Virus record (IMG/VR): IMGVR_UViG_3300025813_000022 | Coordinates: 1 to 25,846 of that record | From: a virus | Length of the DNA: 25,846 nucleotides | Reading direction: 5' to 3' (one strand) | Part shown: in pieces, positions 4,852-21,050 of the stretch | Layout of the letters: each line of letters opens with the position of its first letter | Numbering within the stretch: the stretch's first letter is position 1 | Position numbers and translations under genes: made by a program | The notes under the pieces: model-generated | Seen by the model: only the letters and a program-made list of their open reading frames with translations | What the model was told of the DNA's origin: nothing | The model's database searches: none

Positions 4852-4872
4852 CTCCAACTCACCACATTGGAG
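4852..4872 (+). promoter_or_regulatory. SD-sequestering hairpin with CACCACA loop, helicase leader
   Basis: CTCCAA (4852-4857) pairs perfectly with TTGGAG (4867-4872), leaving the nine-base loop CTCACCACA. The SD core GGAG lies in the 3' arm, eight bases... to seven bases before ATG 4880, so the closed form should hinder ribosome binding. The loop displays the CACCACA box shared with other genes in the window. Confidence 0.5.
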
Positions 4873-4879
4873 AAAAACA

Positions 4880-6469
4880 ATGAAGAACCAATTTGCACCA
4901 TCAAAATACCAGCTTGGCGTTCAGGAGTTCTGCCTGACAAAGTCTGGAAACGGAATCGTGATTGCCGTCGCCGGAAGCGGAAAGAGTTCAACCCTTGAAT
5001 GGCTGTACCCGCAACTGCGCGGATTCATCCTGCAGCTGGCGTTCAACAAACCCATCCAGCTCGATCTGGAGGCCCGGGTGAAAGAGGCCAAGCTAACCAA
5101 TGTCACCGTGAAAACCTTCAACGGCTGCGGTTTCGGCGGTATGTGGAAGGACCTTCCAAAGGCCGGCAAGCGGCTGTTGACCAAACTGGACAAGGACAAG
5201 ATGAAGTGCCTTGTCATGGATCGGCTCGACCGAATCGATTTCGAGGAATTCGGATCCGAGCTGATCAAGCTGTGCGGTCTGGCCAAGGCTTACGGTATTG
5301 TCCCGGAGGGCGGCGGCGGCATCGGCCTGTACCCCGACACCGATCAGATATGGCATAAGCTGGTCGACCTGTATGACCTCGATATTCGCGTCGAGATACG
5401 CCCCTACGTGTACCGGATCCTGCGCGAACTGTTGATTAAGTCCATCGCCGTCGTGCCCGAGGTCATCGATTTCGACGATCAGAAATACATCCCGGTTATC
5501 AAGCAGCTGCCGATCCGCAAATACGATTGGGTGCTGGTCGACGAGGCGCAGGACGCAAGCCATATCGATCGCGCACTGATCAAGATGTGCTTGCGCGAGG
5601 GTGGTCGCATGATCGCGGTCGGGGATCCCTGCCAGAGCATCTACGGGTTCCGCGGTGCCGCTGCCGACTCCATGGACCTGATAGCCGACGAGTTCAAAAC
5701 CACAGAGCTGCCGCTGACTATCAGCTACCGCTGCCCGAAGGCGGTTGTGTTCTATGCGCAGAGCATTGTCAGCCACATCGAGGCATCCCCCACTGCCAAG
5801 GTCGGCACGGTCGTTAGCATACCGCGGTACACCGCCAAGGAATTCCGTCCTGATGATCTGGCTATCTGCCGCAATACGGCCCCGCTGGTCACCATGGCCT
5901 ACCGGGTGCTGGGTCAGGGTGTGGCCTGCCGCATCATCGGCCGGGATATCTCCGGTGGACTGGTGCGACTGATCGAGAAGCTCAAACCCAAGGGCCTGCG
6001 CGGGGAGCATGGACTGGTCGAGAAGCTGATCGAGTGGCGCGATGCCGAGATAGAGAGCCTTGTAGAGCGCGGCAAGGAATCCAAGGTCGAGGGGATTCTG
6101 GACAAGTACGACACCCTGATGACCTTCATCGAGGAATCCGGGGTTGAGACGGTACCGGCGCTGAAAGAAAAGATCACCGGGATGTTCAACGACGACAAAG
6201 GTACCGACGTTCTCACGTTTTGCACCATCCATCGCGCCAAGGGCCTTGAGGCTAACCGGGTGTTCATACTGAACCCAGACTTGATGCCCAGCCCCTATGC
6301 CAAACAGGAGTGGCAGGTCACGCAGGAACACAACCTGATGTACGTCGCCTACACGCGGGCCAAGGATACGCTGGCCTTTATTAATTCGACCGATATCGTC
6401 AGGGAGCATCACACCCCCGTCGGTTTGCGCGCGTACACCCTTCCCGACTACCCGAGGATAGCAGCATGA
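4880..6469 (+). CDS. UvrD/Rep-type superfamily 1 DNA helicase
   Basis: A 529-residue ATP-dependent helicase, compact beside host UvrD (about 720). All core motifs are readable: Walker A AGSGKSS (31-37), motif II DEAQD (221-225), motif III GDPCQSIYGFRGA (248-260), motif IV SYRCP (282-286), motif V TIHRAKGLEA (449-458) and motif VI YVAYTRAKD (488-496). It probably unwinds DNA or strips protein during phage replication or recombination. ATG 4880 is chosen because it follows TTGGAG and the CACCACA box; upstream in-frame starts lie before the promoter. It has its own promoter with operator copy 2, so it is probably repressed together with the ERF gene. Its stop overlaps the next start. Confidence 0.9.
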   Translation: MKNQFAPSKYQLGVQEFCLTKSGNGIVIAVAGSGKSSTLEWLYPQLRGFILQLAFNKPIQLDLEARVKEAKLTNVTVKTFNGCGFGGMWKDLPKAGKRLLTKLDKDKMKCLVMDRLDRIDFEEFGSELIKLCGLAKAYGIVPEGGGGIGLYPDTDQIWHKLVDLYDLDIRVEIRPYVYRILRELLIKSIAVVPEVIDFDDQKYIPVIKQLPIRKYDWVLVDEAQDASHIDRALIKMCLREGGRMIAVGDPCQSIYGFRGAAADSMDLIADEFKTTELPLTISYRCPKAVVFYAQSIVSHIEASPTAKVGTVVSIPRYTAKEFRPDDLAICRNTAPLVTMAYRVLGQGVACRIIGRDISGGLVRLIEKLKPKGLRGEHGLVEKLIEWRDAEIESLVERGKESKVEGILDKYDTLMTFIEESGVETVPALKEKITGMFNDDKGTDVLTFCTIHRAKGLEANRVFILNPDLMPSPYAKQEWQVTQEHNLMYVAYTRAKDTLAFINSTDIVREHHTPVGLRAYTLPDYPRIAA

Positions 6470-6942
6470 CACAGAAAGAACTCGACAAACTCATGGCGGT
6501 GTTTGAGTTGCTGGCCACAAGCCTTTACTTGTCGCATGAACACCTGAAAGAGGATTACAGGATGCTTCAAGAGGAAGTGGAAGCAAGCCCCGATATGGGC
6601 GAGTCTGACACCTTTCAGTCATACGATATTTCCATGCAGGCGAGGCTGAACACCAACGAAGAGGTTCTCAGGAAGGCCGAGGAACTGATGGAGCTTCCGG
6701 GAAGGTTCACCGACCCGGAATTTCAACTCCCGAACGGCATCGCCATGGTCACGCCGCCGGCATCGGTTGACGTGAAAATACAGGTCACGCAGGACATTGA
6801 CCGCAACCTAGTCAATATCACCTTCGATCAGCCGGTAATGAACATCGCCATGGATCTGGAGGCGATACGGGAGTTCAAGTATTCGATTTTAGAGGGTATG
6901 GAGCGGCTGGTGCTGGCATCCGGCAGGGCAAGAATGAACTAA
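6466..6942 (+). CDS. Hypothetical protein, 158 residues
   Basis: The start overlaps the helicase stop (ATGA), so translation is coupled. Residues 1-80 are strongly helical and charged, probably a coiled coil (KELDKLMAVFELLATSLYLS, then a long E/K-rich stretch). Residues about 85-125 look beta-rich and carry a PPASVDVKIQVTQDIDRNLV segment, and a short helix ends the protein. No family recognised. Coupling to the helicase hints at a role in the same step of DNA metabolism, but that is weak evidence. Confidence 0.65.
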   Translation: MTQKELDKLMAVFELLATSLYLSHEHLKEDYRMLQEEVEASPDMGESDTFQSYDISMQARLNTNEEVLRKAEELMELPGRFTDPEFQLPNGIAMVTPPASVDVKIQVTQDIDRNLVNITFDQPVMNIAMDLEAIREFKYSILEGMERLVLASGRARMN

Positions 6943-6952
6943 GGAGAGAGCA

Positions 6953-7270
6953 ATGAGCTTATCTGGCGTAAAAAAAAGAGACGCGGTATTGCGGGACGAG
7001 TTATCAGAAAAGGAGTTCTTGGCGTTGTGGCCGGCAAACAGGAACCTCAACGAGGCGGTCGACAGCATAGAGAGCAAGGCATCCCGGGTAGGCAAGGCTG
7101 GCCATGAGTTGCTTGGCGTCAGGACCAGCGTTCGCAATCACCTGTTATGGATGGCCGAGCGGCAATTCAGCATTGACCATACCAAACTGAGCGAAAACCA
7201 CATCATGTCGCTGTTGGAGAGTTGTCGACTGACAATCGATTACAACCGGCTCATGAAGTGCATCGGATGA
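6953..7270 (+). CDS. Hypothetical protein, 105 residues
   Basis: A helical protein with no recognised domain. The N terminus is mixed-charge (KKRDAVLRDELSEKEFLALW), and the centre (VRNHLLWMAERQFSIDHTKL) suggests a packed helical bundle. The SD AAGGAGAG lies five to eight bases before ATG 6953, one of the strongest in the early operon, without a CACCACA box. The gene ends in an ATGA overlap with the next. Confidence 0.6.
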   Translation: MSLSGVKKRDAVLRDELSEKEFLALWPANRNLNEAVDSIESKASRVGKAGHELLGVRTSVRNHLLWMAERQFSIDHTKLSENHIMSLLESCRLTIDYNRLMKCIG

Positions 7271-7491
7271 CCGATTTAACTGAAACCTTCGCCAAGCTGG
7301 CTGAACGGGAGCAGGCGGTTAAGGTACGCGCAGCCGACGAACGCCGTCGAAGGGTGGAGGAGCTGCAGCGGTTCCTGTCGGTGCTTACGCCGAAGGAGCG
7401 AAAATTCCTCGATGACCTCAAGAGCGAGTTCGGTACCGTCTACTTCCAAAGAATAACCTTCAACGAGGGACCTCACCATGATGACACCTGA
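7267..7491 (+). CDS. Small coiled-coil protein, 74 residues
   Basis: The start overlaps the previous stop (ATGA at 7267-7270). An upstream in-frame ATG at 7222 would sit inside the neighbour without an SD. Residues 1-50 are a charged helix (FAKLAEREQAVKVRAADERR, then RRVEELQRFLSVLTPKERKF), probably a coiled coil, ending in an acidic and His-containing tail. It overlaps the next gene by 14 bases. Function unknown. Confidence 0.55.
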   Translation: MTDLTETFAKLAEREQAVKVRAADERRRRVEELQRFLSVLTPKERKFLDDLKSEFGTVYFQRITFNEGPHHDDT

Positions 7492-8002
7492 GCAAGTAAA
7501 AGAATTGCAGCTGGCGTGGGACACCGCCCTGCTGAAAGCGTGGCGCGATGATATCAAGTTCGGGCACCTGATGTATCGGTTCTGTACCGAGGTAAAGCTG
7601 GTGTACGGCATCGATCTTCCGGCGGAAGTTGAAGCGGAAGGAAGGAAGGGTATCGCCCGGTACCTGCATCGGAGAGGATTGAAGCGTATCGGTCACGACG
7701 GGCGGTTTCGGTGCGGTGGGACACGCCGTCCGGTGCGCGCCTTCGTGCATGATTATCTGAGCCCGCTAAGTAATGTTTTGTGGGACGGTGAGATACAGGA
7801 TACCGAAACACTGCTCGATATCATGCACGGCCTGTCGACCACGAAAACACGGTCTGCAGCAAACGAGTCGGTAGTCATTTCCAGAATGAGGCGCGGCATC
7901 AGGAACTCGGTTGTTGAGTCGGTCCTCTTGTACAACAGGAACAGGCGACCAACCCGGGGCGATAAGTGGGGAACAACCAAGGCCGTTAGGGGGAAGGGGT
8001 AG
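7478..8002 (+). CDS. Hypothetical basic protein, 174 residues
   Basis: This starts at the first of two adjacent Met codons, with GAGGGA seven bases upstream, inside the end of the previous gene. The N-terminal half is helical (PEQVKELQLAWDTALLKAW). The C-terminal 60 residues are rich in Arg and Lys (RMRRGIRNSVVESVLLYNRN, then a basic tail), suggesting nucleic acid contact. No family recognised. Confidence 0.55.
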   Translation: MMTPEQVKELQLAWDTALLKAWRDDIKFGHLMYRFCTEVKLVYGIDLPAEVEAEGRKGIARYLHRRGLKRIGHDGRFRCGGTRRPVRAFVHDYLSPLSNVLWDGEIQDTETLLDIMHGLSTTKTRSAANESVVISRMRRGIRNSVVESVLLYNRNRRPTRGDKWGTTKAVRGKG

Positions 8003-8005
8003 GCC

Positions 8006-8338
8006 ATGCCTGAGTTCTGCTATCACATTCAGCGGCGTGGATCCGGGGTTTATCTCACCCGCAACGTGAGGACTGTCGAGATACCCGTTTCCCCGCGCCT
8101 CGATCTGGAAAACCACAGCCCGACCGGTCTGGAGTATGGCTACCCCGGGTCCGGGCCGGCGCAACTGGCGCTTGCCGTGCTGGCTGACTACCTGCACGAC
8201 GACCGGCGCGCCTTGGACCTTCACCAAGAATACAAGTTCGATGTAATCGCCAAGCTGGATCAAAACCAGCCGCGGCACACCATAACAACCGCAAGTCTCG
8301 ACGAGTGGTTGTCTCACCACAAACCCGAAGAGGACTGA
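8006..8338 (+). CDS. DUF6166-like protein
   Basis: A 110-residue protein with a beta-rich first half (RGSGVYLTRNVRTVEIPVSP, about 11-30) and the stretch GYPGSGPAQLALAVLADYL (about 45-63), typical of DUF6166 proteins in phages, plasmids and integrative elements. That family has no established function. It is preceded by AGGGG a few bases before ATG and lies three bases after the previous gene. Its 3' end carries the TCACCACA box (8314-8321) serving the next gene. Confidence 0.6.
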   Translation: MPEFCYHIQRRGSGVYLTRNVRTVEIPVSPRLDLENHSPTGLEYGYPGSGPAQLALAVLADYLHDDRRALDLHQEYKFDVIAKLDQNQPRHTITTASLDEWLSHHKPEED

Positions 8339-8342
8339 CGCT

Positions 8343-8732
8343 ATGATGGAGCAATTCGACAGAGTAGAGCCTGTAGACGGTATCCCCGGCAGCCCGGACG
8401 TTCCGCTGATCACCCAAAAGCAACTCAACCACTTTACCGATAAGCTGGCAAACACCAGCTGGAACGGCAAGCGCGGCGACGAAGAGCGGTACCTGTCGCT
8501 GCAGATCAAGTATCTGACCATGGCGCTGCTGCTGTATCCACCAAGGGATCCGGATGCTTACGAGCGAAGGGAGAGAACGCTGCGCACCCTGTTCAATCGG
8601 CTATCTGCCGTGCGCGAGCGGATCCGGGATCACGCCAAACAGGTGGAGAAGTTGCGGATCCGGGAAGAGGGGCAGAATCGATTCCGGACGGTGCCGGCCT
8701 CCCCGGTGGGTCTGGCCGAGGTTGAATACTAG
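8343..8732 (+). CDS. Hypothetical protein, 129 residues
   Basis: This is the last gene of the early rightward operon. Residues about 25-105 are helical and highly charged (ERRERTLRTLFNRLSAVRER near 75-94), with a possible coiled coil, and contain no recognised motif. The leader has TCACCACA (8314-8321) and an AGAGGA SD about ten bases before ATG. It is followed by the two-hairpin element that closes the operon. Confidence 0.6.
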   Translation: MMEQFDRVEPVDGIPGSPDVPLITQKQLNHFTDKLANTSWNGKRGDEERYLSLQIKYLTMALLLYPPRDPDAYERRERTLRTLFNRLSAVRERIRDHAKQVEKLRIREEGQNRFRTVPASPVGLAEVEY

Positions 8733-8783
8733 GTCATATCACTTAGGTATTGAAAAGGGGACAGAAAATGGTACTCTCAATCC

Positions 8784-8838
8784 CACTATGGGGTTGTACC
8801 CCTTGAATAGTGAAAGGCCCCGGAAACGGGGCCTTTTT
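8784..8838 (+). ncRNA. Candidate two-hairpin small RNA or operon 3' end
   Basis: Two stem-loops stand back to back. The first pairs CACTAT (8784-8789) with ATAGTG (8807-8812) and GGGGT (8790-8794) with ACCCC (8798-8802), with a four-base TTGA bulge. The second is the terminator at 8816-8838. A weak promoter-like pair, TTGAAA (8750-8755) and TACTCT (8772-8777) with a 16-base gap, would start transcription near 8784. It may equally be just a structured 3' end of the upstream operon. Confidence 0.3.
8816..8838. terminator. Bidirectional rho-independent terminator
   Basis: GGCCCCG (8816-8822) pairs with CGGGGCC (8827-8833) around a GAAA tetraloop, followed by five T on the plus strand. Three A precede it, so a shorter U-run forms on the minus strand. 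It sits between convergent operons ending at 8732 (plus) and 8842 (minus), as expected for a shared terminator. Confidence 0.85.
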
Positions 8839-8841
8839 CGT

Positions 8842-9048: not shown

Positions 9049-9515
9049 CTTTTGTCTCCGCTTGGAACATCCGGGATGACATTGATAGCATACCCCGGGT
9101 TATTGGTCTTGAGTTCTCTGTAGACCGTCTCAGGGGCCGCTTTGGCGGTGTACGGCAGTGGTAGGGTTGTGGTGCCGAAGGCGCGATCCCACAGGGTCAT
9201 CAGGGGCTCGGTAACGGCGGTTCCAACCCACTTGCCATTGATCAGCTGGGCCACGATGCGGGGTTGCTCGACCGCGATCACCTTGGCGCCGGGGTTGCCG
9301 GCCTCCCTGAGTACCGCGGTCATGGCCCTTGCCATGGCGTCTGCCGGTTCCTTGCAGCCCACCCTGAATGTCTCGCCGTCAGCCCTGCGAACGTAATCTG
9401 CGGAGCCGTGAGGGTCGGATATCTGCAGGACAAACATCCCGGGTTGGTCATGCGGGACTATACTTTTTTCAGAGTGCTGGCCGTGGTAGAGTTTTTCACT
9501 GTCAGGATTCTTCAT
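9045..9515 (-). CDS. Hypothetical protein, 156 residues
   Basis: No family recognised. The N-terminal 25 residues are polar. Residues about 27-60 look beta-rich (GMFVLQISDPHGSADYVRRA), followed by a helix (EPADAMARAMTAVLREAG) and further strands. The leader is notable: box CACCACA directly followed by AGGAG, and both lie in a hairpin at 9521-9539. A larger hairpin (9542-9577) separates it from the gene before it. Its end overlaps the TrfB-like gene by four bases. Confidence 0.6.
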   Translation of the reverse strand: MKNPDSEKLYHGQHSEKSIVPHDQPGMFVLQISDPHGSADYVRRADGETFRVGCKEPADAMARAMTAVLREAGNPGAKVIAVEQPRIVAQLINGKWVGTAVTEPLMTLWDRAFGTTTLPLPYTAKAAPETVYRELKTNNPGYAINVIPDVPSGDKR

Positions 9516-9520
9516 TGTGT

Positions 9521-9539
9521 TCTCCTTGTGGTGAGGAAA
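9521..9539 (-). promoter_or_regulatory. SD-sequestering hairpin with CACCACA loop
   Basis: On the minus strand TTTCCT pairs with AGGAGA (six pairs, one a G-U), leaving the seven-base loop CACCACA. The SD lies in the 3' arm, six bases before ATG 9515. This matches the design of the leaders at 4852-4872 and 21027-21050. Confidence 0.45.
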
Positions 9540-9541
9540 CA

Positions 9542-9586
9542 GCCCCGACTATCCGTTTCTCCGTGGGTAGCCGGGGCAACTTTTTT
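9542..9586. terminator. Strong hairpin with plus-strand T-run inside the leftward operon
   Basis: GCCCCG-A-CTATCC (9542-9554) pairs with GGGTAG-C-CGGGGC (9565-9577), with one mismatch and one G-U, around a ten-base loop. AAC and six T (9581-9586) follow on the plus strand. This is terminator form for rightward transcription, although genes here run leftward. It could block antisense reading, or serve in the leftward mRNA as a stability or attenuation hairpin. Confidence 0.5.
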
Positions 9587-10211
9587 AGGTGGTGTGCAGA
9601 TTCTTGTGCACACCTGTAAGGGTCAGCAGGACAATGAGGTTGGAGTCATCATCCAGCCCCAAATCCTCGACGCACTGGTTTCTGGCCTGAATTTCCGCCT
9701 CGAAAACCCCTTCCGGCCTGTTCTGGCCGCCGTAGGCCACCGTCAGGTAGGTTCGCATCGGCGGGGTCATGGTCTGAATCAGGACTGTGTAGGGGACAGC
9801 GTTGTTGTTTGGTACAGAAATTTCTAGGTTGATGTAGCGATTTAGGTCATAGGCCGCTACCCAGCTGGAACCGCACGACGGGCATGATTGTTTGGTATAA
9901 CACGTCATCCCATCAATGTCAGGTATGTCACCATGAACGTCCCAATGGTTGCAGACCGGGCATTTTTCACCACCTAGCAATAACCATTCTGACGAGTTGT
10001 GTAGCGGGAGTTTCAGGCAGGATTCGCACACGACCATGCGTGTGATTATCTGGTTCGCGGTTTCCGGACTGTCATCGGTATCGACGTGGTAATCCCGTGC
10101 GTAACGGTGCTCCGATTCGAGAATCGGGTTGTCGCACCTGTCGCATACGGTTTCGGTGGCTGTCAGGCGCTCTTTTATCGACCTGATATCCATGTTTCGG
10201 TTTTTGCTCAT
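9585..10211 (-). CDS. Multi-zinc-ribbon protein, 208 residues
   Basis: Three cysteine groups suggest two or more zinc ribbons: C23-x2-C26 with C62-x2-C65, then C84-x2-C87 with C110-x2-C113 (C104 is also present). The knuckles read CDRC, CESC, CPVC and CPSCG. The C-terminal 80 residues are beta/alpha with no recognised motif. Zinc ribbons of this kind mediate nucleic acid or protein contact. ATG 10211 follows CGGAG and a CACCACA box, so it is preferred over the internal Met at 10193. It is the longest gene of the leftward operon. Confidence 0.65.
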   Translation of the reverse strand: MSKNRNMDIRSIKERLTATETVCDRCDNPILESEHRYARDYHVDTDDSPETANQIITRMVVCESCLKLPLHNSSEWLLLGGEKCPVCNHWDVHGDIPDIDGMTCYTKQSCPSCGSSWVAAYDLNRYINLEISVPNNNAVPYTVLIQTMTPPMRTYLTVAYGGQNRPEGVFEAEIQARNQCVEDLGLDDDSNLIVLLTLTGVHKNLHTT

Positions 10212-10242
10212 TGTGGTATCTCCGGTTGTGGTGTGGATGGTC

Positions 10243-10509: not shown

Positions 10510-10513
10510 GGCA

Positions 10514-10966: not shown

Positions 10967-11268
10967 AGCAGCACCTTGTAGTTTGTCAGGACGAAGTCAA
11001 TGGCAGCGTCCCAGCCGGCATCGAACGCTACTTCAGACGCCTCTCTGAAACACAGCCTACCGAATCTGGGGCGATCGATAACCTCGGATCTGGCTTTGGC
11101 GCGCAGGTCCATGTCGCCATCGTTCCAGTGGCTCTCGTTGATCAGGACGGGCGTGAAGGGATCCTGTGGGGCGTCTTTGTAGGACATACGCGCACCTTCT
11201 AGGCGCGCTACACGCTGATGCAGCTGGTCGAGCTGTTCTTTGATGCTCATGTTGTCTAGCAGACTCAT
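10963..11268 (-). CDS. Hypothetical protein with N-terminal coiled coil, 101 residues
   Basis: ATG 11268 is chosen because CGGAG lies seven bases upstream; the open frame extends to 11544 but the upstream part is out-of-frame DNA of other genes. Residues 5-28 form a heptad-like helix (MSIKEQLDQLHQRVARLEGA). The C-terminal part includes FREASEVAFDAGWDAAIDFV, a helix seen in several small phage proteins of unknown role. In its leader CTCC and GGAG can pair around a three-base loop. Its end overlaps the DUF7694-like gene (ATGA). Confidence 0.6.
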   Translation of the reverse strand: MSLLDNMSIKEQLDQLHQRVARLEGARMSYKDAPQDPFTPVLINESHWNDGDMDLRAKARSEVIDRPRFGRLCFREASEVAFDAGWDAAIDFVLTNYKVLL

Positions 11269-11309
11269 GGTGATTCTCCGGTGGAGGCCATCCTTGGCCG
11301 TGGCGAGGG

Positions 11310-11489
11310 TTAGCCGCGGGGCTTGTAGCAGTTCAGCCCGAGGATTGCATCGGTACCCGGGATCTTGGTGTTCCCCGAGGTCGTGGCAATGATGGTGGTC
11401 TTGCCAGACTTCGAGGGACCGTGGTTCTCGGACAGGTCGATCTTGAGGATCAGGGTTTTGCCGTCCAGCTCGATATCGATGTTTGTCAT
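11310..11489 (-). CDS. Small conserved phage protein, 59 residues
   Basis: A frame from ATG 11489 to TAA 11312-11310. The protein is beta-rich, with a recognisable phage pattern: a charged strand (IDIELDGKTLILKIDL), then the SKSGKTTIIATTSGN block (about 26-40), and a hydrophobic end (ILGLNCYKPRG). The SGKTT run is not a Walker A motif because it lacks the preceding G-x4. The SD CGGAG lies seven bases upstream, after an ACCACA box. Function unknown, although similar small proteins are common in phage accessory regions. Confidence 0.65.
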   Translation of the reverse strand: MTNIDIELDGKTLILKIDLSENHGPSKSGKTTIIATTSGNTKIPGTDAILGLNCYKPRG

Positions 11490-11565
11490 GGTGATTCTCC
11501 GGTTTGTGGTTTGGGATCGGCTTTCGCCGGGTACGCCCCCTCACAGGAAGAGGCGTAGCCTGCGG

Positions 11566-11754: not shown

Positions 11755-12244
11755 GGCGCAACTCCTTGAGCGGTGTCGGGGTGAAATGCAGATCCAGCTC
11801 GACGCCGTTCTCGATCAGCTCTTGGATGCTGATGTAGCCGAGACTCGGGCCATACCCGATATCGGCCATGCCAAACGCCTGATGCTGGCCGGTGTCACAG
11901 GGATCCGCAGGGTCGCCCCTGTCCTTTTCGGTGATGTACCAGTCCATCCCGCCGCGGAAGTAGTGCAGGTAGGCAATAGCCTCATCGCCCTTGCCGTCCT
12001 GATCATAGGTTTTGGGCATGTCCTGAATCAGGATGGTGGTCTGGATGATCTGGTCGACGAAATGCCAGCCTTCCTCGCCCCGCAGGCCGCAGGCCAGTGC
12101 GAAACGCTCAGACTCGGGCATGAAATCCTTGAGGACGGCATTGGACAGGCTCAGGGCGGCGTCAATGTCCTCCCTCTTCGGCCGGCCGCGGCGATTGATG
12201 ACCGTGCTGACGGTGGGGCTGATTCTGTTGGGTACTGCGTTCAT
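11747..12244 (-). CDS. DUF2958-like protein, 165 residues
   Basis: After a polar N terminus with a basic RRGRPKRED segment (about 18-26), the C-terminal half carries blocks resembling DUF2958: AIAYLHYFRGGMDWYITEKD (about 89-108), QHQAFGMADIGYGPSLGYIS (about 119-138) and ELDLHFTPTPLKEL. DUF2958 proteins are frequent in mobile elements and lack an established function. The SD AAGGAG lies seven bases before ATG 12244, and a GNRA-looped hairpin separates it from the CACCACA box. Confidence 0.6.
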   Translation of the reverse strand: MNAVPNRISPTVSTVINRRGRPKREDIDAALSLSNAVLKDFMPESERFALACGLRGEEGWHFVDQIIQTTILIQDMPKTYDQDGKGDEAIAYLHYFRGGMDWYITEKDRGDPADPCDTGQHQAFGMADIGYGPSLGYISIQELIENGVELDLHFTPTPLKELRHD

Positions 12245-12275: not shown

Positions 12276-12289
12276 GGTTGTGGTGAGGT

Positions 12290-12601
12290 TTACAGTTGCT
12301 CGAATTTGCCGGATCCGCGGCCGTTTTCGTAGTAGATCGAGGTAGCGCCAGCGTTCGGTGTGCCGAAATCATCCAGCGGCGCGAATAACGTCTCGTCGTC
12401 CGGGCCAAGGTAGAACCCGGAGTAGTACAGCTCGCCGTCGTCGTCGTACATCCTGAACTCTTTGGCCTTCGGGTGGCCGCTGATTTCCTCGGGGCGCATG
12501 GTGCAGCCGCGAGGACCGGTGGTGCCGGCTTCGTCCTTCTCGAAGCCGTCGGGATCCCTCTGGTGCAGGTGGTCTACTGTGATTACCCAAGCGTATGTCA
12601 T
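12290..12601 (-). CDS. Hypothetical acidic protein, first gene of the leftward operon (103 residues)
   Basis: ATG 12601 follows AGGAG by eight bases and an ACCACA box; the frame extends upstream to 13006, but that part lies beyond the promoter. The protein reads MTYAWVITVDHLH, then an EAGTTGPRG stretch, then KEFRMYDDDGELYYSGFYLG (about 52-71), a pattern I associate with small proteins of mobile elements. It is strongly acidic. No function is assigned. Confidence 0.65.
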   Translation of the reverse strand: MTYAWVITVDHLHQRDPDGFEKDEAGTTGPRGCTMRPEEISGHPKAKEFRMYDDDGELYYSGFYLGPDDETLFAPLDDFGTPNAGATSIYYENGRGSGKFEQL

Positions 12602-12628
12602 GGTGGTTCTCCTGTGGTGTGGTGGCCT

Positions 12629-12710: not shown

Positions 12711-13214
12711 ATGGGTGGAATAGGCTCACACACAAAACCAAACGGCGGGTATGACGAGTGGATAACCCCACCTGAGATAGTTTCTGGCTTGGGACCTTTC
12801 GATCTTGACCCGTGCGCAGCGGTAGGGCAGCCGTTCCAAACGGCAGGGCTGCAGTACACGATCGAGGACAACGGGCTTGATCGGCCATGGACCGGGTGTG
12901 TCTGGATGAATCCGCCATACGGCAAATCCACGGGGCTGTGGCTGTCCAGACTGGCCGACCATGGTGACGGTATTGCGCTTATATTCGCCAGAACAGAAAC
13001 CCGCATGTTCTTTGATTACGTCTGGCCCCGGGCAACGTCGCTGCTATTCATCGAGGGGCGGTTGCACTTCCACTATGTCGACGGTTCCCGAGCAAAGTGC
13101 AACTCCGGAGGCCCTTCCGTGCTGATTGCTTACGGGGAGCGCGCCGCCGACAGACTGGCCAACTCAAGCATACCCGGGAAGCTGGTTGTCCTTCGGGGAA
13201 GCAACGAGCCATAA
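12711..13214 (+). CDS. Phage DNA N6-adenine methyltransferase (Dam-like)
   Basis: This 167-residue protein transfers methyl from S-adenosylmethionine to adenine N6. The catalytic motif NPPYG stands at 67-71. DLDPCA (31-36) is the binding-side motif typical of the small phage-type N6A methylase family, and DEWITPPEIV (15-24) is that family's characteristic start. No target-recognition domain is present; such short enzymes usually methylate GATC. It may protect phage DNA from host restriction or mark packaging and replication. It is the first rightward gene after the leftward operon, and its start lies within a short AT-rich divergent region. The iteron cluster follows directly. Confidence 0.85.
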   Translation: MGGIGSHTKPNGGYDEWITPPEIVSGLGPFDLDPCAAVGQPFQTAGLQYTIEDNGLDRPWTGCVWMNPPYGKSTGLWLSRLADHGDGIALIFARTETRMFFDYVWPRATSLLFIEGRLHFHYVDGSRAKCNSGGPSVLIAYGERAADRLANSSIPGKLVVLRGSNEP

Positions 13215-13215
13215 G

Positions 13216-13269
13216 GGAGGACTCCCCGAGGGCTCGCGAGGGCTCGCGAGGATTCACCGAGCCCTCACA
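13216..13269. repeat. Second iteron cluster, upstream of the terminase genes
   Basis: Five units in tandem: GAGGACTCCCC, GAGGGCTCGC, GAGGGCTCGC, GAGGATTCACC and GAGCCCTCAC. They are the same family as the array inside the initiator gene (1644-1690), and the end resembles 1278-1297. Here the DNA is non-coding, so the repetition is not a protein constraint. Initiator binding, a second origin element, or terminase recognition are all possible. Confidence 0.6.
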
Positions 13270-13521
13270 GAATTCATGGTGCAGCCAGCCTAACCGCCGC
13301 ATAGGCCGGCATTACTGCAGGGGCGTTGAGACGGGAAGCGGGCATCGCCGCATCCTTGCTGGGTACCCTACCCGGCGCGCCCACGACCAGCTGGCGGTGT
13401 CGATTAACACCAGCAGTGCGATACGGGACCGGCGGCGTGTTGTGTCGGGGCGTAACCTCCTTAACGCTGCCGGGATCGTGCCGGGGGCGCATCGATAGCG
13501 CCCAATCTAATTTAGCCATTT

Positions 13522-13551
13522 CCCCCCATAGTGACCTACAGGGTGGGGGGG
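13522..13551. other. C6/G6 hairpin
   Basis: CCCCCCA (13522-13528) pairs with TGGGGGG (13544-13550) around a 15-base loop that can itself form TAG/CTA. The same CCCCCA-TAG ... TGGGGG layout occurs at 12629-12645. The two flank the methyltransferase gene and iteron cluster. Confidence 0.5.
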
Positions 13552-13589
13552 AGATATCGCCTCCTGCGCGTTCTCAGGAGGTCAATTTT

Positions 13590-13851: not shown

Positions 13852-13863
13852 TCGAGCCGAACC

Positions 13864-14493: not shown

Positions 14494-14552
14494 GTGGGAA
14501 ATCACAGCTATCCGCTCGCCGAGCGATTGTCATTTTGTGGGGAAAACAGACC

Positions 14553-14747: not shown

Positions 14748-16255
14748 GCCGAGCTGTCGCAACTGTCGCACCTGTCGCTGTCGCACGGGCGCCGGGAACT
14801 GCGGAGCTGACCATCCCGGGGAAGCTGCAGCGCCTGATCGAGGTACACAAGCGGTTCAAGGTCATTCTTGGTGGCCGCGGATCCGCCAAGTCGAACTCGG
14901 TGGGTGATATCTGCCTGAAGGACGTGGCGGTGACCGGCCTGAAGGTCGGATGCTTCCGCGAGTACCAGAACACCATCGCCGACTCGGTTCATTCCTTGCT
15001 GGCAGGGGAGATTGAGCGCCTTGGGGGCGAGGGATTCGAGGTACTGGCGCAGGAAATCAACCACGCCAGCGGTGGCGGATTCCGGTTCCGCGGTCTGGCG
15101 CGCAATGCCAGCGGCGTTAAATCCATGCACGGATTCCGCCGATTCTGGATCGAAGAGGCGCAGACCATCAGCAAAGAGTCGCTGAAACTACTGACGCCTA
15201 CGATGCGCGAGGAAGAGGGCGAAATCTGGATGACGGCCAACCCGCAGTCGCGGGCCGACCCGTTCTCCGAGCGGTTTATCAACCCGTTCCTGCGTGATCT
15301 GGAGAAGTATGGGTACTACGAGGATGATCTGCACCTGATCATCGTCTCGAACTACATGGACAACCCCTTCTTCCCGCCTGAGCTGGAGCAGGAGCGCCAG
15401 TGGGACGAGGAACACCTGCCATGGGCCGAGTACGAGCATATCTGGCTGGGCAAGTTCCTCGATACGGTCGAGAACGCGATCATCAGCGTCGAGTGGTTCA
15501 ACTCGGCGATCGATGCGCACCTGCAGCTGGGTATCGAGCCGCAGGGCGTCAGGATCCTTGCCCACGACCCGTCGGATCTGGGCCCGGACCCCAAGGGCCT
15601 GATGTTGCGCCACGGATCAGTGATTACCGGGTGCTGGGACAACGACAAGGGCACGGCCGAGGAAGGCATGGATTGGGCCACGCAAATGGCCATCGATGAG
15701 CGCGTCGACGTGTTCCGGTGGGATTGCGACGGGCTGGGAGTCAGTCTCAAGCGCCAAGCGGCAACCCAGCTGGACGGCAAGGGTATCGATATCGACATGT
15801 TCAAGGGATCCGAGGGGGTGGACTTCCCGAACGATATCTACCAGCCGGACGGTGTGATCGACAAGCGCAACGCCAAGACCAACAAGGAAACCTTCAAGAA
15901 CAAGCGCGCACAGTGGTATTGGAACCTGCGCGATCGGTTCATGAACACGCACAGGGCCGTGACCCGCAAGCTGTACATGAACCCCGAGAGCCTGATATCG
16001 ATATCCAGCGAGCATATCGACCCGGGGATGATCGACCGGCTGCGTACCGAGGTCTGCCGGATCCCGAGGAGGTACAACGCCAACGGCTACATTCAGATCA
16101 TGTCGAAGGTGGAAATGAAAAAGCCTCCGCTCAACATCGAATCCCCCAACCTCGCGGATTCTCTCATGATGTTGATGCCGGGACACACGCGCAATGTTAC
16201 AGTCAGCACTCAGGCCCGACCGGTAGTTCGTAGGAGCATGTCGGGCTGGACCTAG
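14744..16255 (+). CDS. terL: Terminase large subunit (packaging ATPase-nuclease)
   Basis: The 503-residue motor protein pumps DNA into the prohead and cuts it. Walker A is GGRGSAKS (43-50), Walker B is FWIEEAQ (134-140) and the coupling motif is IWMTANPQ (161-168). Nuclease acidic residues fit D275 (AHDPSDLG), D327/D329 (RWDCDG) and D472 (NLADSLMM). The layout is the PBSX/Terminase_3-like group. It starts with GTG at 14744, overlapping the previous stop; no better ATG lies before the ATPase domain. A proline-free alanine/valine-rich N-terminal extension (1-20) precedes the ATPase core. Its 3' end lies inside the hairpin that covers the next gene's start. Confidence 0.92.
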   Translation: MSRAVATVAPVAVARAPGTAELTIPGKLQRLIEVHKRFKVILGGRGSAKSNSVGDICLKDVAVTGLKVGCFREYQNTIADSVHSLLAGEIERLGGEGFEVLAQEINHASGGGFRFRGLARNASGVKSMHGFRRFWIEEAQTISKESLKLLTPTMREEEGEIWMTANPQSRADPFSERFINPFLRDLEKYGYYEDDLHLIIVSNYMDNPFFPPELEQERQWDEEHLPWAEYEHIWLGKFLDTVENAIISVEWFNSAIDAHLQLGIEPQGVRILAHDPSDLGPDPKGLMLRHGSVITGCWDNDKGTAEEGMDWATQMAIDERVDVFRWDCDGLGVSLKRQAATQLDGKGIDIDMFKGSEGVDFPNDIYQPDGVIDKRNAKTNKETFKNKRAQWYWNLRDRFMNTHRAVTRKLYMNPESLISISSEHIDPGMIDRLRTEVCRIPRRYNANGYIQIMSKVEMKKPPLNIESPNLADSLMMLMPGHTRNVTVSTQARPVVRRSMSGWT

Positions 16256-16279
16256 TCACCACACAGGAGAGCTGACATG
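16237..16279 (+). promoter_or_regulatory. Leader hairpin covering SD and ATG, with CACCACA in the loop
   Basis: CATGTC (16237-16242) pairs with GACATG (16274-16279), which includes the start codon. GCT pairs with AGC (16245-16247 with 16270-16272), and inside CCT with AGG (16251-16253 with 16265-16267), leaving AGTCACCACAC as the loop. The terL stop codon lies in the structure, so ribosomes finishing terL would open it and permit coupled translation. Confidence 0.45.
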
Positions 16280-16825
16280 AGTGATATTGCCGAGGTAACC
16301 GCGCACGTCCTGAAAACCGACCCCGAGCCGTTCGAGGATGTGCTGAAAGGGCGAAAGACTTTCGAGATTCGCTACGACGACCGGGGGTACGAGGTCGGCA
16401 ACGTGCTGCACCTGAGAGAAACCCGGTTCACCGGCGACGAAATGCGCAGGGATCCGGACAGATACCCGCTCGAATACACTGGCCGCGATTGCTGGGTGGG
16501 GATTATCCATATCTTGAGAGGGGGCTACGGACTTATGGGTGGCTGGATCATTGCCAGCATCACCGCGCCGTTCGACAACCCGAACCAGCTTCTTGGTGAA
16601 GAAAAGCCCCGCCCTAAAAGCGAGACGGCTTGCCAATATTGCCGGTGGTGGGGGCTGAAAGACCATGCCGTTAAGGACCTCAACGAGGCCCGGGGTGTGT
16701 GTCGGGTGAATCCTCCCGTCCTGCTGACCGACGACAGTGACCACGAGCCATGGCCGGTAACCTACGGCAACGAGTTCTGCGGCAAGTTCGAGAAGAAACC
16801 CTTTGATATCTACAAGAAGGTTTAG
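16277..16825 (+). CDS. DUF3850/ASCH-like domain fused to a Cys-rich module
   Basis: Residues about 8-98 match DUF3850, an ASCH/PUA-like RNA-binding fold: HVLKTDPEPFEDVLKGRKTF (10-29), EIRYDDRGYEVGNVLHLRE (30-48), and a GRDCWVGIIHILRG strand pair. Residues 117-170 carry C119-x2-C122-RWW, G-x-CR-x-NP (C142) and C168, a small metal-binding module repeated in the next gene. ASCH domains are thought to bind RNA or modified nucleotides, so a regulatory or nucleotide-sensing role is possible. The leader has the TCACCACA box and AGGAG. Confidence 0.65.
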   Translation: MSDIAEVTAHVLKTDPEPFEDVLKGRKTFEIRYDDRGYEVGNVLHLRETRFTGDEMRRDPDRYPLEYTGRDCWVGIIHILRGGYGLMGGWIIASITAPFDNPNQLLGEEKPRPKSETACQYCRWWGLKDHAVKDLNEARGVCRVNPPVLLTDDSDHEPWPVTYGNEFCGKFEKKPFDIYKKV

Positions 16826-16827
16826 CC

Positions 16828-17139
16828 ATGAGCGAGCGAACCTGTGAACAGTGCGCTTGGTGGGTGAAGCTGTCCGATGACGAAATAAGGGGAATGTTTG
16901 AGCTTTATCTCAGGACAGGAGAGGTCGGGACCTGCCGATTCAATCCTGCGATCATGATCCCGAGAACCGAGCAGGAACGCAGGTTTCCGCCGTTTCCGGT
17001 GACCAATCGCAAGGACTGGTGCCGTCAGTTCGCCCTGCGCGAGGATCTGGCCATCGAGAAGCAGAAGGAGCGAGAACGCCAGAGGATCGGTATTCGGGCG
17101 CCAACCCCGAAGCCAACCAGAGCCGGGGGTGAATGGTGA
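16828..17139 (+). CDS. Cys-rich module protein, 103 residues
   Basis: This is a free-standing copy of the module at the end of the previous gene. C6-x2-C9-AWW, then G-x-CR-x-NP around C36, then FPVTNRKDWC with C65 and F. The C-terminal 35 residues are a charged helix (IEKQKERERQRIGIRAPTPK). It begins two bases after the previous stop. Four Cys suggest one zinc or iron site. The shared spacing implies that both modules descend from one ancestor. Confidence 0.6.
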   Translation: MSERTCEQCAWWVKLSDDEIRGMFELYLRTGEVGTCRFNPAIMIPRTEQERRFPPFPVTNRKDWCRQFALREDLAIEKQKERERQRIGIRAPTPKPTRAGGEW

Positions 17140-17408
17140 TGGCCGCGTCCCTGAGCGGTTTCGTCAACTGCTACGGCGAGCCGGTTGTCATCAGCAAGCC
17201 GAGGCCGGGAACACCTGCAGGCTACGCGGCCCCGCCCGGGAGCGGTCCGGAGGGTGAAACCTGCGGGACCTGTAACCACCTGTATCGCAGGAAAATGGCG
17301 AAAACCTACCTCAAGTGCGAGCTGATGCAGGCCCGGTGGACGGGTGGCAAGGGTACCGACGTTAGGTCGAGGTCGCCGGCCTGTCTGCGCTGGGAGGGCA
17401 AGCCATGA
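17133..17408 (+). CDS. Cys-rich phage protein, 91 residues
   Basis: C44-x2-C47 (ETCGTCNHL), C62 and C84 (SPACLRWEG) form a pattern frequent in small phage proteins, where a TDVRSRSPACLRWE end is typical. The first 40 residues are Gly/Pro-rich. ATG 17133 lies five bases after GGGGG, better than the second Met at 17139, and the gene overlaps its neighbour by seven bases. No function known. Confidence 0.6.
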   Translation: MVMAASLSGFVNCYGEPVVISKPRPGTPAGYAAPPGSGPEGETCGTCNHLYRRKMAKTYLKCELMQARWTGGKGTDVRSRSPACLRWEGKP

Positions 17409-17656
17409 GTACCGCCGAAGAGATAGCCAAACTCGCCGATGCGATCGACAGGGCCACGGCAGTACCGCAGGAATTAATGATCGGCCCCGACCATCCACTG
17501 CACGAGGCCGCGATGAAGTTCCACATGCGAGGCAAAGCGGATCCGGTGGCCGACAACGAGCCCCGCGGGCGCAACGGCAAGCGGGTGAGTGAGCAGACAA
17601 CCGAGGAATGGCTGGCCGACTACGAGGCCGCGCTGAAAGAACAGGGGAAATTGTGA
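17405..17656 (+). CDS. Hypothetical protein, 83 residues
   Basis: The start overlaps the previous stop by four bases (ATGA), so it is coupled. The protein opens with a helix (AEEIAKLADAIDRATAVPQE) and ends with another (EQTTEEWLADYEAALKEQ), with a polar middle. No recognised family. Confidence 0.55.
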   Translation: MSTAEEIAKLADAIDRATAVPQELMIGPDHPLHEAAMKFHMRGKADPVADNEPRGRNGKRVSEQTTEEWLADYEAALKEQGKL

Positions 17657-17865
17657 CCGACGACTGCAGACTACATGGCGGTATGCTGGTCTGGTACCGC
17701 GGTCTGCAGGAGGAACAACGCAAGATCGAGGCCCGACTGGCAGCCGGTGAGCGAATCACCGAGCCAGAGCGGGCGATCGTGCGCTCGGGGATGGATGAAA
17801 TGAAGGCCATGGAGCGGCTGGCAAGACTCTCACCATGCGGAAAACCCGAAAAAGAGTCTATTTAG
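17653..17865 (+). CDS. Hypothetical protein, 70 residues (GTG start)
   Basis: GTG 17653 overlaps the previous stop (GTGA) and follows AGGGGA. The protein is mainly one long charged helix (LQEEQRKIEARLAAGERITE, then PERAIVRSGMDEMKAMERLA). Two Cys (C5 and C62) are far apart. A later ATG at 17683 would remove the first ten residues. Function unknown. Confidence 0.5.
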   Translation: MTDDCRLHGGMLVWYRGLQEEQRKIEARLAAGERITEPERAIVRSGMDEMKAMERLARLSPCGKPEKESI

Positions 17866-17891
17866 ACCCCAAATAGACCCCAATTAGCCCG
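17863..17891. repeat. Triplicated TAGACCCCAA direct repeat
   Basis: TAGACCCCAAA and TAGACCCCAAT stand in tandem (17863-17884), followed by a shortened TAGCCCG. The repeat begins at the stop codon of the previous gene and fills part of the 89-base gap before the Tat-signal gene. No promoter reads clearly from it. Confidence 0.5.
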
Positions 17892-17954
17892 TTTTTGGTG
17901 AGCATCTTCGTGACCCGTCAATTCTGTCGGGTGACGCAACCAACAGGAGAAACC

Positions 17955-18527
17955 ATGAACAGACGCAGATTTCTGCGCCTGCTGGGCTTGTCAGCGGGCG
18001 TCGTGAGTGTTCCCGTCGTGCTGTCCGGGGTGGATGTGAAGTTCCAGACCATGCCGGTCAAGGACGGCAAGGGGGTTACAGCCGCCGACGTTGCGCGCGC
18101 CGGAAAGGTGCTGGATGAGCAGGACGTACCGAAGGAAGGTCGCAGCCTGTATACATCCCTGCAGGACAAGGCGCGCCTGCTGCGCGAGGTCGTATTCGAG
18201 GATCCGGTGCTGACCGAGTACAAGACCCTCCCGCCGGTCGAGGTATTCGAGCCGCACTGCGAATATTCCAGAGAGTGGGATACCTTCGTCATTCGAGGTC
18301 TGGCGTTCCCGAAAGGCAGTAACGGCCCCACAGATGGCCGGTATTTCACCACGAAGGTCGACGAAGAGCTTGCCGACAGGGTGCTGACCAACCCCGATGC
18401 CCGCGAGGATCTGCGCCGCGAGATCCACGAAAGCACGGCCCGGGCGCTGTATTCGCCCACCCAGCGGGCGGTTTGGAATAAGGACCTGCTGAAACAGTTC
18501 TACGACAGGGTGTCCACCCATGGCTAA
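17955..18527 (+). CDS. Protein with Tat-type signal peptide, 190 residues
   Basis: The N terminus reads as a twin-arginine export signal: RRRFLRLL (3-10), a hydrophobic core (GLSAGVVSVPVVLSG, about 11-25), then a polar sequence. There is no clear AxA cleavage site in the first 30 residues, so it might stay anchored. The rest is mixed charge with no recognised domain. Residues 51-63 (KVLDEQDVPKEGR) resemble residues 178-190 of the capsid protein in this window. ATG 17955 is supported by AGGAG seven bases upstream; the frame extends upstream to 17895 without an SD. Lying between terminase and portal, it might be a virion protein rather than an exported one. Its end overlaps the next gene. Confidence 0.6.
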   Translation: MNRRRFLRLLGLSAGVVSVPVVLSGVDVKFQTMPVKDGKGVTAADVARAGKVLDEQDVPKEGRSLYTSLQDKARLLREVVFEDPVLTEYKTLPPVEVFEPHCEYSREWDTFVIRGLAFPKGSNGPTDGRYFTTKVDEELADRVLTNPDAREDLRREIHESTARALYSPTQRAVWNKDLLKQFYDRVSTHG

Positions 18528-18906
18528 TGTCGAGCTGACCGATTCTGACGTGGAAGAGGCGTTCAGTAAGGCGGTGCGCGATATCGTCAACCTGAGAGAC
18601 GCCCCGCTCGGAGCCAACCGTTACGGGGTGCTGCGCCACAACAGTAAGTCGCGCAAGGGCGTGATGCTGCTGACCTTCCGCACCCACGACAAGCTGGAAA
18701 TCGACTTCGAGGTTGATATGTTCGAGCTCCAAGCCCACGGCCGGCGCTACGTCGAGCATGTGATCGGACTGCTGTACATGCAGATCGGCAAGGCCCGCGA
18801 GGTCCGGCAGGAAGAGACTCGAATCGAAATCATCAACCATCCCATCAACAGGCCCGAGCCCGTGCCCACAGCCACGGCAGAGGCCGTGAGCAAGGTAATC
18901 CACTGA
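18520..18906 (+). CDS. Hypothetical protein before the portal gene, 128 residues
   Basis: The start overlaps the previous gene by eight bases. The fold looks alpha/beta: a helix (DSDVEEAFSKAVRDIVNLRD), strands (GVMLLTFRTHDKLEIDFEVD), a helix (HVIGLLYMQIGKAREVRQEE) and a Pro/Thr-rich tail. No family recognised. It lies one base before the portal start, so a head-assembly role is possible. Confidence 0.55.
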   Translation: MANVELTDSDVEEAFSKAVRDIVNLRDAPLGANRYGVLRHNSKSRKGVMLLTFRTHDKLEIDFEVDMFELQAHGRRYVEHVIGLLYMQIGKAREVRQEETRIEIINHPINRPEPVPTATAEAVSKVIH

Positions 18907-18907
18907 T

Positions 18908-21016
18908 ATGGCGCTAGGATCAACCGGTCTGGTTCGAGACGACAAGACGACGGGCAAGAGTGGCCTGCTAGTCGTTAAATCCAACTCCACCCTTGCCGCA
19001 GAGAAGGCAAAGGCAGAGCAGGAGGCCAAGAACAACCAGAACACGCCCCTGCTGGTAGGTCTTGCGGCTGATCTGACGCAAAAGTGGGAAGTGGCCAAGA
19101 CGGCCCGCACGTCCATCGAGCAGCGGTTACTGGACTGTCTGCGCCGCCGGCAGGGTGAGTATTCGCCCGAGAAGATGGCCAGCATCAAGGCGACCGGCGG
19201 ATCCGAAGTGTTCATGATGCTGACCAGTATCAAGTGCCGCGCGGCCGAGAGCTGGATCAACGACATTCTGTTCCCGGCCGGTGACCGGTGCTGGGAGGCC
19301 GAGCCGACCCCGATTCCGGACATGGACCCCGAGATCCGGCAGGAGCTGGCACAGGCGGTAGCCCAAGAGGCCATGATGTGGATGCAGCAGAACGGCATCC
19401 AGCTTCCTCCGGAGATCGTCCAGCAGCGCATGAAGATGGCCGAAGAGGAAATCGCCACGCGGCTGGAGAAAATGTCCCGCGAGACGGCCGAGAAGATGGC
19501 GAAAAAGATCGACGACCAGTTCACCGAGGGCAAGTGGGAAGAGGCCATGCGCGAGCTGGTGAAGAACACGGTGACCTTCCCGACCGCGTTCATCAAGGGC
19601 CCGGTAGTGCGCAAGCGCAAGTCTCTCAAGTGGATGCAGGACGGTAACGGCAAGTGGATCCCGAAGGTCGCCTCCGTGCTGCGACCCGAGTATTACGCGC
19701 CCAGCCCGTTTGACCTGTATTTCTCGCCATCCTCGAAGAACGTGCAGGACGGCTACCTGTTCGAGCGCCATCGCCTGCGCCGCAAGGACATTCTGGCCAT
19801 GAAGGGTGTTCCCGGGTACGACTCGGGCGCGATCGACGCGGTTCTGAGCCAGTACGGCATGGGCGGGCTGCGCAACTGGCTGACCGGTGACCAGCAGCGC
19901 GCCGAGCTGGAAGGCCGGCCGAACGAGTGGCTGGGACAGACCGATACCATCGATGCCCTTGAGTATTGGGGCAGCGCCAGCGGCCGGCATTTGCTTGATT
20001 GGGGTATGGATCCAGCCAAGGTCCCGGACCCCAACATGGAGTATGAGGTCAACTGCTGGAAGATCGGCAGCTACGTCATCAAGGCCGTGCTGAATGAATC
20101 CCCGACCGGGGAGCGTCCCTATGACCAGTGTTCGTTTGAGGATGTGCCCGGTTCGATATGGGGCAAGTCGGTTCCCGAGCTGATGGCCGACGTGCAGGAC
20201 GTGTGCAACGCCGCGGCGAGGTCGCTTGTAAACAACATGGCTGTATCGTCAGGGCCACAGATTGAGGTTCACACCGACAGGCTGGCGATCGGCGAGGACA
20301 TTTCCAATGTCACCCCGTTCCGGATCTGGCAGACCCTGTCAGACCCCAACGGCGGCACGAACAACCCGGCAGTGCGGTTCAACTACCCGCAGAGCATTGC
20401 CGACCAGCTGATGAAGGTCTACGAGTTCTTCTCCACGCTGGCCGACGAGTACACCAACATCCCGAAATACTCCTACGGCGACAACAAGGGCGCGCCGGGT
20501 ACCGCCTCCGGGCTGTCAATGCTCATGTCGTCAGCTGCCCGGGGGATCAAGCAGGTCATCGCCAATCTGGACAACCCGATCGAGGGCACGGTGCGCCGCA
20601 CCTACATCCACAACATGCTGTTTGACGAGGATGAGTCCATCAAGGGCGATCTGAGCGTCAGTGCCAAGGGTGCGCGCTCCATGGTGGCCAAAGAGCAGCA
20701 GATGGTACGCCGGCAGGAGTTCCTGCAGACCACGAACAACCCGACCGACTTGCAGATCATGGGTCTGGAAGGTCGCGCCATGCTCCTGCGCGAGGCCGTG
20801 AAGTCGTTCGAGATCAACGTCGACGACGTGATTCCCGACCGTGAGAAGCTACAGGAGCAGATGCAACAGGCCATGCAGGCCGAAATGCAGCAGCAACAGC
20901 AGGCCGCGATGCAGGGTGGACAGGCAGGACCGGCGCCGGGTGGCAGCCGCAACCTCGATCAGGCTGGAAATCCGGCTGGTGGCACCGATACCCGGTTGAT
21001 TCGCCAAGCCGCCTGA
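18908..21016 (+). CDS. Portal protein (P22/podovirus-like, 702 residues)
   Basis: This forms the dodecameric ring through which DNA enters and leaves the head. Its length matches the large portals of P22-like podoviruses. Features include a charged N-terminal segment, a helical region (about 138-225), the recognisable ASVLRPEYYAPSPFDLYFSP (about 256-275), a GSIWGKSVPELMADVQDVCN stretch, NIPKYSYGDNKGAPGTASGL (about 519-538) where the barrel/crown transition usually lies, and a Gln-rich tail (about 650-675) like the P22 barrel. The call rests on these blocks and on position between terminase and scaffold. Confidence 0.85.
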   Translation: MALGSTGLVRDDKTTGKSGLLVVKSNSTLAAEKAKAEQEAKNNQNTPLLVGLAADLTQKWEVAKTARTSIEQRLLDCLRRRQGEYSPEKMASIKATGGSEVFMMLTSIKCRAAESWINDILFPAGDRCWEAEPTPIPDMDPEIRQELAQAVAQEAMMWMQQNGIQLPPEIVQQRMKMAEEEIATRLEKMSRETAEKMAKKIDDQFTEGKWEEAMRELVKNTVTFPTAFIKGPVVRKRKSLKWMQDGNGKWIPKVASVLRPEYYAPSPFDLYFSPSSKNVQDGYLFERHRLRRKDILAMKGVPGYDSGAIDAVLSQYGMGGLRNWLTGDQQRAELEGRPNEWLGQTDTIDALEYWGSASGRHLLDWGMDPAKVPDPNMEYEVNCWKIGSYVIKAVLNESPTGERPYDQCSFEDVPGSIWGKSVPELMADVQDVCNAAARSLVNNMAVSSGPQIEVHTDRLAIGEDISNVTPFRIWQTLSDPNGGTNNPAVRFNYPQSIADQLMKVYEFFSTLADEYTNIPKYSYGDNKGAPGTASGLSMLMSSAARGIKQVIANLDNPIEGTVRRTYIHNMLFDEDESIKGDLSVSAKGARSMVAKEQQMVRRQEFLQTTNNPTDLQIMGLEGRAMLLREAVKSFEINVDDVIPDREKLQEQMQQAMQAEMQQQQQAAMQGGQAGPAPGGSRNLDQAGNPAGGTDTRLIRQAA

Positions 21017-21026
21017 CGGATAGTCA

Positions 21027-21050
21027 CCCCTCCAATCACCACAGGAGGGG
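21027..21050 (+). promoter_or_regulatory. SD-sequestering hairpin with CACCACA loop
   Basis: CCCCTCC (21027-21033) pairs perfectly with GGAGGGG (21044-21050), leaving AATCACCACA as the loop. The SD is fully within the stem, and ATG 21057 follows six bases later. The portal stop (21014-21016) lies just before the stem, so a terminating ribosome could open it. Confidence 0.6.

Follow-up and report, generated by a model that had tools for sequence, protein, structure and literature searches.

Start-associated sequences (SAS) and extended SAS (ESAS) have been described in Cluster K mycobacteriophages (PMC3203893) and in Cluster EF Microbacterium phages (PMC7302621), and the Cluster EC (Quhwah) Microbacterium phages have repeat motifs located 21-30 bp 5' of their gene starts (PMC7302621). 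Since 2011, SAS have been recorded in actinobacteriophages, without a known reader and without support as RNA structures. Here, we analysed CACCACA, a seven-letter start-associated version found in a different phage set that includes the cultured model Rhizobium phage 16-3. The starting point was IMG/VR virus record IMGVR_UViG_3300025813_000022, a tailed phage whose 25.8-kb stretch is hereafter called the window. The nearest described phenomenon to the CACCACA box is the SAS/ESAS of actinobacteriophages. We consider it probable (about 60%) that the box is a start-associated cis element that acts on the translation initiation of chosen genes and is read as single-stranded RNA by a factor acting in trans.

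Sixteen copies of CACCACA are present on the two strands of the window, compared with a mean of 4.0 and a largest count of 9 in 100 dinucleotide shuffles. Twelve of them lie 16-45 nt 5' of a gene start on the same strand, a zone that makes up 2.4% of both strands (P about 5e-17). These figures bear out the preliminary description of this DNA, which had proposed a genome-wide box locked in its orientation to the translation initiation region. The gap between box and start is 11-16 nt for ten copies, and 21 and 34 nt for the remaining two. Most boxes are found 0-5 nt 5' of the Shine-Dalgarno (SD) sequence (GGAG or GAGG). The SD varies at boxed starts, and the conserved letters, CACCACA, are those located 5' of it. 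Early and late genes alike carry the box, as had also been proposed: the former include the genes for Erf (start at 808, minus strand) and a helicase (4880), and the latter those starting at 16277, after the terminase, and at 21057, after the portal. The box is absent from many of the genes that overlap the preceding one or lie directly next to it. The individual copies are as follows.

822..828, minus strand: CACCACA, 13 nt 5' of the Erf-like single-stranded DNA-annealing gene (ATG at 808); no hairpin.
1211..1217, plus strand: CACCACA before GAGGG and the ATG at 1230 of a 30-aa open reading frame (ORF); CTC/GAG stem of 3 pairs only.
3087..3093, plus strand: CACCACA before AGAGGA, with the gene start at 3108; stem of 3 pairs only.
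4860..4866, plus strand: CACCACA of the UvrD-like helicase gene (ATG at 4880); a 6-pair CTCCAA/TTGGAG hairpin (4852-4872) includes the SD.
8315..8321, plus strand: CACCACA in the 3' end of the ORF 8006-8338, 21 nt 5' of the start at 8343; this copy may be coincidental coding sequence.
9527..9533, minus strand: CACCACA, 11 nt 5' of the gene start at 9515; a 6-pair TTTCCT/AGGAGA stem can be drawn, at chance level.
10227..10233, minus strand: CACCACA, 15 nt 5' of the gene start at 10211; 3 pairs only at the SD.
12279..12285, minus strand: CACCACA, 34 nt 5' of the gene start at 12244; box and SD are separated by a CCCCGGGcaaCCGGGG hairpin.
12613..12624, minus strand: overlapping double box CACCACACCACA adjoining GGAG, with the gene start at 12601; no SD-hiding hairpin.
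16257..16263, plus strand: CACCACA of the DUF3850 gene (start at 16277); interrupted nested fold 16237-16279, at chance level.
21037..21043, plus strand: CACCACA of the gene after the portal (start at 21057); a 7-pair CCCCTCC/GGAGGGG hairpin (21027-21050) includes the SD.

A pattern scan of viral contigs yielded further box-bearing contigs, with 11 boxed sites in G016, 9 in G021, 6 each in G015, G017 and G019, and 3 in G018, versus none in the reversed control. G015, G016 and G021 match Rhizobium phage 16-3 and have many genes in common. The strict pattern identified 11 boxed starts in 16-3 itself, 9 in TM3_3_14B, 7 in X2_25, and 5 each in AP-16-3 and NV1.1.1; among more distant phages, AmM-1 has none and RR1-A has one. 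The box is also present in dozens of viral contigs related to 16-3. It is not general among the other phage and cell loci that we fetched, and a general phage bias was rejected as its source on this ground. Viral contigs yielded 12 matches to the strict pattern, so the box clusters in certain phages and is not widespread among viruses. The same pattern gave 63 scattered matches in 257 Gb of cellular DNA, and bacterial genomes harbour 1-8 sites per whole genome. Thus, host-genome usage does not account for the box and was ruled out as its source.

Three of these contigs represent phages unlike both 16-3 and the window, in which boxes occur together with an SD (G017, L285-L286; G018, L287; G019, L288-L289; GC content of 58-70%). 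A 13-bp hairpin with the loop GGCCGACCA stands 5' of one of the G018 boxes.

The identity of the letters was then considered. CACCACA ranks first or second among the 7-mers found 5' of starts in the window, G015 and G016, and it is the commonest, joint commonest or second commonest A/C 7-mer 5' of the SD in box phages, where non-overlapping alternative A/C 7-mers are rare. Permuted A/C 7-mers average 0.4-1.0 per box phage, versus 5-11 for CACCACA. Similarly, 479 kb of 16-3-related contigs contain 211 CACCACA sites versus 1-35 for most permuted 7-mers; the overlapping 7-mer ACACCAC has 85. Thus, the letters matter beyond mere richness in A and C, and a bias in A/C composition was rejected as the source of the box because permuted 7-mers do not show equal enrichment.

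In the 16-3-like phages, the elements are arranged in the order of a CACCA-loop hairpin, usually 20-30 nt before the start, followed by CACCACA and then by a free SD. We collected the leaders of the sliding-clamp gene from 80 contigs. CACCACA is present within 45 nt of the start in 52 of the 71 distinct leaders, and of the 69 leaders with a hairpin, 60 show an ACCA loop, their stems comprising 39 different sequences. A plain MAFFT alignment comprised 56 leaders, those with longer spacers and those without an ACCA-type hairpin having been excluded beforehand. RNAalifold analysis of this alignment gave a five-pair core with compensatory changes at all five pairs. Pairing cells amounted to 86.4% (57.1% shuffled), and the covariation score was 0.707, versus 0.227 when shuffled and at most 0.14 when slid. 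When the arms were swapped between phages, the number of leaders with at least 7 pairs, among all 69, fell from 54 to 14.7. Strong covariation thus supports this predicted hairpin of the 16-3 family as RNA.

An upstream hairpin was found at 110 of 208 boxes of the 16-3-like phages (10.1 shuffled), and one with ACCA in the loop at 69 of 208 (0.05 shuffled). A covariance model built from the clamp leaders located additional sites at numerous gene starts in every one of these phages; in the window, its matches were all weak (E 0.012 to 0.36). The motif had initially been described as shown in the loop of a hairpin. Such a display does exist, with covariation, in the unrelated 16-3-like phages, but there the hairpin is located upstream and leaves the box and the SD single-stranded. 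Thus, the idea of loop display survives in an altered form and in another phage family.

We propose that CACCACA directly 5' of the SD would serve as a sequence-specific cis element of phage mRNAs. A trans-acting factor of host or phage origin would bind the box as single-stranded RNA, and the bound factor would raise or lower 30S binding at the adjoining SD. The lock to the SD and the start, the single orientation and the strictly kept letters suggest that the box is recognised as single-stranded RNA beside the SD, and hence that it affects translation initiation. The presence of a second CACCA in the hairpin loop of the 16-3 family suggests, by inference, a reader with two sites; the factor would bind both the loop and the box, an arrangement with the geometry of a dual-site translational operator. 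The same factor might operate in both phage groups. SD-sequestering hairpins would form no part of the element in the window phage. The trans-acting protein or RNA envisaged in the preliminary description could read the orientation-locked box, but hardly by way of an SD-hiding loop, which occurs at chance level.

Several observations weigh against this proposal. An upstream ACCA-loop hairpin is present at 0 of 11 window boxes, so that a common function of the box in the window phage and in the 16-3 family would be an analogy drawn from seven letters and their position. The two groups have no protein in common by blastp or tblastn (E 1e-4), and no 16-3 protein matches the window. The contigs G015-G021 came from a pattern search and were thus pre-selected for at least one box, and the gene starts used throughout are computed ones. 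Finally, the box was not found in the parts covered of two rhizobial portal relatives, RHph_TM3_14A and N3_13.

Among the other explanations, the box might have no dedicated reader and be an unstructured A/C-rich standby or enhancer site that keeps the SD open and aids 30S loading. The box has no G or T, and the spacers 3' of the SD are likewise A/C-rich, as would be expected of such a site. However, its exact letters are kept, A/C 7-mers of equal composition are rare at the same position, and CACCA recurs in the hairpin loop of the 16-3-like phages, which makes this explanation unlikely in our view. We regard as more doubtful the possibility of a DNA-level element, part of a promoter or an operator, that merely happens to be near starts. 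The inverted repeats of the Cluster K ESAS were indeed thought likelier to be DNA sites (PMC3203893). Here, in contrast, the box has a fixed place within a few nt of the SD and shares the orientation of the gene, and a promoter scan of the first 20 kb of the window gave fewer sigma-70-like matches than shuffled sequences. In addition, the 16-3-like hairpin covaries as RNA, although, formally, the pattern could come from an inverted DNA site whose specificity changes.

The box might also serve as the seed-pairing site for a small RNA (sRNA) of phage or host origin that carries UGUGGUG. In enterobacteria, GcvB is an sRNA that uses C/A-rich sites close to SDs in this manner. The position and C/A composition of the box fit this hypothesis, and the display of CACCA in a loop would suit kissing contacts. 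Nevertheless, Rfam searches of the window and of half the 16-3 genome gave no match above the gathering score, and no candidate sRNA was identified, making such a site quite improbable.

The four SD-hiding hairpins named in the preliminary description can all be drawn, but they do not exceed chance. Stems of at least 5 pairs formed by the 5' flank across the box are present at 4 of 11 window boxes, versus 2.75 with shuffled flanks (p = 0.24). At 269 boxes of other phages they number 29, versus 35.9 expected, and the claim of a conserved hairpin architecture is thus not supported. When the 5' flanks were permuted among ten copies, with the box unpaired, the p value was 0.026 by energy (0.24 without the 21037 copy) and 0.023 by pair number (0.045 without it). 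Relative to dinucleotide shuffles, the folding z was -0.33 for 4838-4890, +0.60 for 9508-9550 (minus strand) and -0.41 for 16232-16285; the only notable segment of the four was 21018-21066, with a z of -1.96, beating 195 of 200 shuffles. The 4852-4872 hairpin was better than about 99% of flank shuffles. The boxes at 828, 12619 and 12285, all on the minus strand, do not form an SD-hiding hairpin. A box followed by GGAG, often after CT, forms pairs readily. Pairing of the SD in a hairpin at most copies and above chance, as in SD-sequestering riboregulators, was not found in the window. Flank permutation, stem counts and dinucleotide shuffles thus led us to reject SD-hiding hairpins as the unit of the element. 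A switch in which a factor binding the box in the loop opens or locks a sequestered SD is therefore highly improbable, in spite of the four drawable cases and the good scores of 21018-21066 and 4852-4872, as such hairpins are at chance in the window, are not enriched at the 269 boxes elsewhere, cannot form at several boxes, and surpass the dinucleotide shuffles in only one of the four segments.

The reading of CACCACA as a single-stranded element could be taken one step further. CACCACA by the SD, with or without the CACCA-loop hairpin, might constitute a shared RNA address for one conserved bacterial-host factor, adopted independently by unrelated phages as a means of controlling the translation of chosen genes. 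We find this extension speculative and rather unlikely; the factor would perhaps be alphaproteobacterial, and the 16-3-like phages would perhaps have turned the address into a two-site operator with a covarying hairpin. If a host factor does read the box, selected phage genes would require, for their translation, a step of mRNA recognition that has not been seen before. The covariation of the 16-3 hairpin makes the old question of what reads start-associated sequences testable in a laboratory phage.

Two protein families provide leads as to the reader. The DUF3850 gene of the window (16277-16825; PHROG 986, 'RNA-binding protein') has a box in its own leader, and its product is a candidate reader that might regulate its own synthesis. 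The p074 family is kept in all 16-3-like phages tested (orthologs at L297:16013-17155 and L300:8050-9213). Its members have repeated GDRV-type segments, and Pfam analyses indicated that some have an end resembling the C-terminus of ribosomal L7/L12. They are possibly ribosome-linked factors and putative readers.

The window also codes for an Erf-like annealing protein, a UvrD-like helicase, the small and large terminase subunits, a major head protein and a portal-like head-tail protein of 702 aa. The large terminase has at most 47% identity to GenBank phages, and the nearest homologues of the portal are those of Rhizobium phages, at 34%. In the collections searched, the sole close relative of the window phage is 99.99% identical. 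CACCACA was not found in relatives of the window identified by their TerL proteins at 44-56% identity, and the fetched loci yielded no homologues of the boxed window genes, distant helicases excepted.

Other repeats were noticed in the window. The sequence ACCGGAGAATCACCATGA (minus strand) occurs in exact or near-exact form at three starts (11486-11503, 11265-11282 and 12598-12615); these repeats include the SD, the spacer and the start, and two of the three have a partial box only upstream. A GC-rich 50-nt repeat with TCGCGA palindromes is present in three copies (1251-1300, 1633-1682 and 13217-13266). The GC-rich region 12950-13560, located between divergent gene blocks, has no evident gene and may hold promoters or an origin.

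As to precedents, CACCACA and phages were not found together in the literature searched, which left out most subscription papers, so that an earlier notice is possible; the paper on the AP-16-3 genome is silent on hairpins, motifs and ribosome-binding sites. The box resembles the SAS in that it is short, asymmetric and repeated, is found at the ribosome-binding site of only some genes, with about 10-19 copies per genome, and has a single orientation relative to the gene, as seen for 12 of the 16 window copies. As in the SAS/ESAS systems, part of the copies have an upstream inverted repeat or a second conserved sequence. In contrast, the SAS sequences GGGATAGGAGCCC and GGGAAAGGACCCC cover the position of the SD, whereas CACCACA is located 5' of a variable SD and does not conform to the SAS consensus. 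Thus, the box works like an SAS but is not a member by sequence. The hosts also differ, as do the sequences, and the CACCACA box recurs in unrelated phages.

In ESAS, an upstream paired repeat accompanies about half of the SAS, whereas none of the 11 window boxes has an upstream ACCA-loop hairpin; the 16-3-like phages do have an analogous upstream hairpin. The inverted repeats of Cluster K were judged not to be RNA hairpins (PMC3203893), in contrast with the covarying hairpin of the 16-3 family. The Cluster EC (Quhwah) motif, TAGaCTCTaGGTgTaAgC, is unlinked to CACCACA.

CsrA/RsmA systems have dual-site translational operators, in which GGA motifs are bound by a CsrA-family dimer. The 16-3-like phages resemble them in geometry only, with one motif in the loop of an upstream hairpin and a second copy beside the SD. 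The motif itself is CACCA rather than GGA, no CsrA-like protein was identified, and the window phage is devoid of the hairpin half. Relative to the two-part element of the 16-3-like phages, the window thus lacks the covarying CACCA-loop hairpin 20-30 nt before the start, but it shares with them the CACCACA box directly 5' of the SD.

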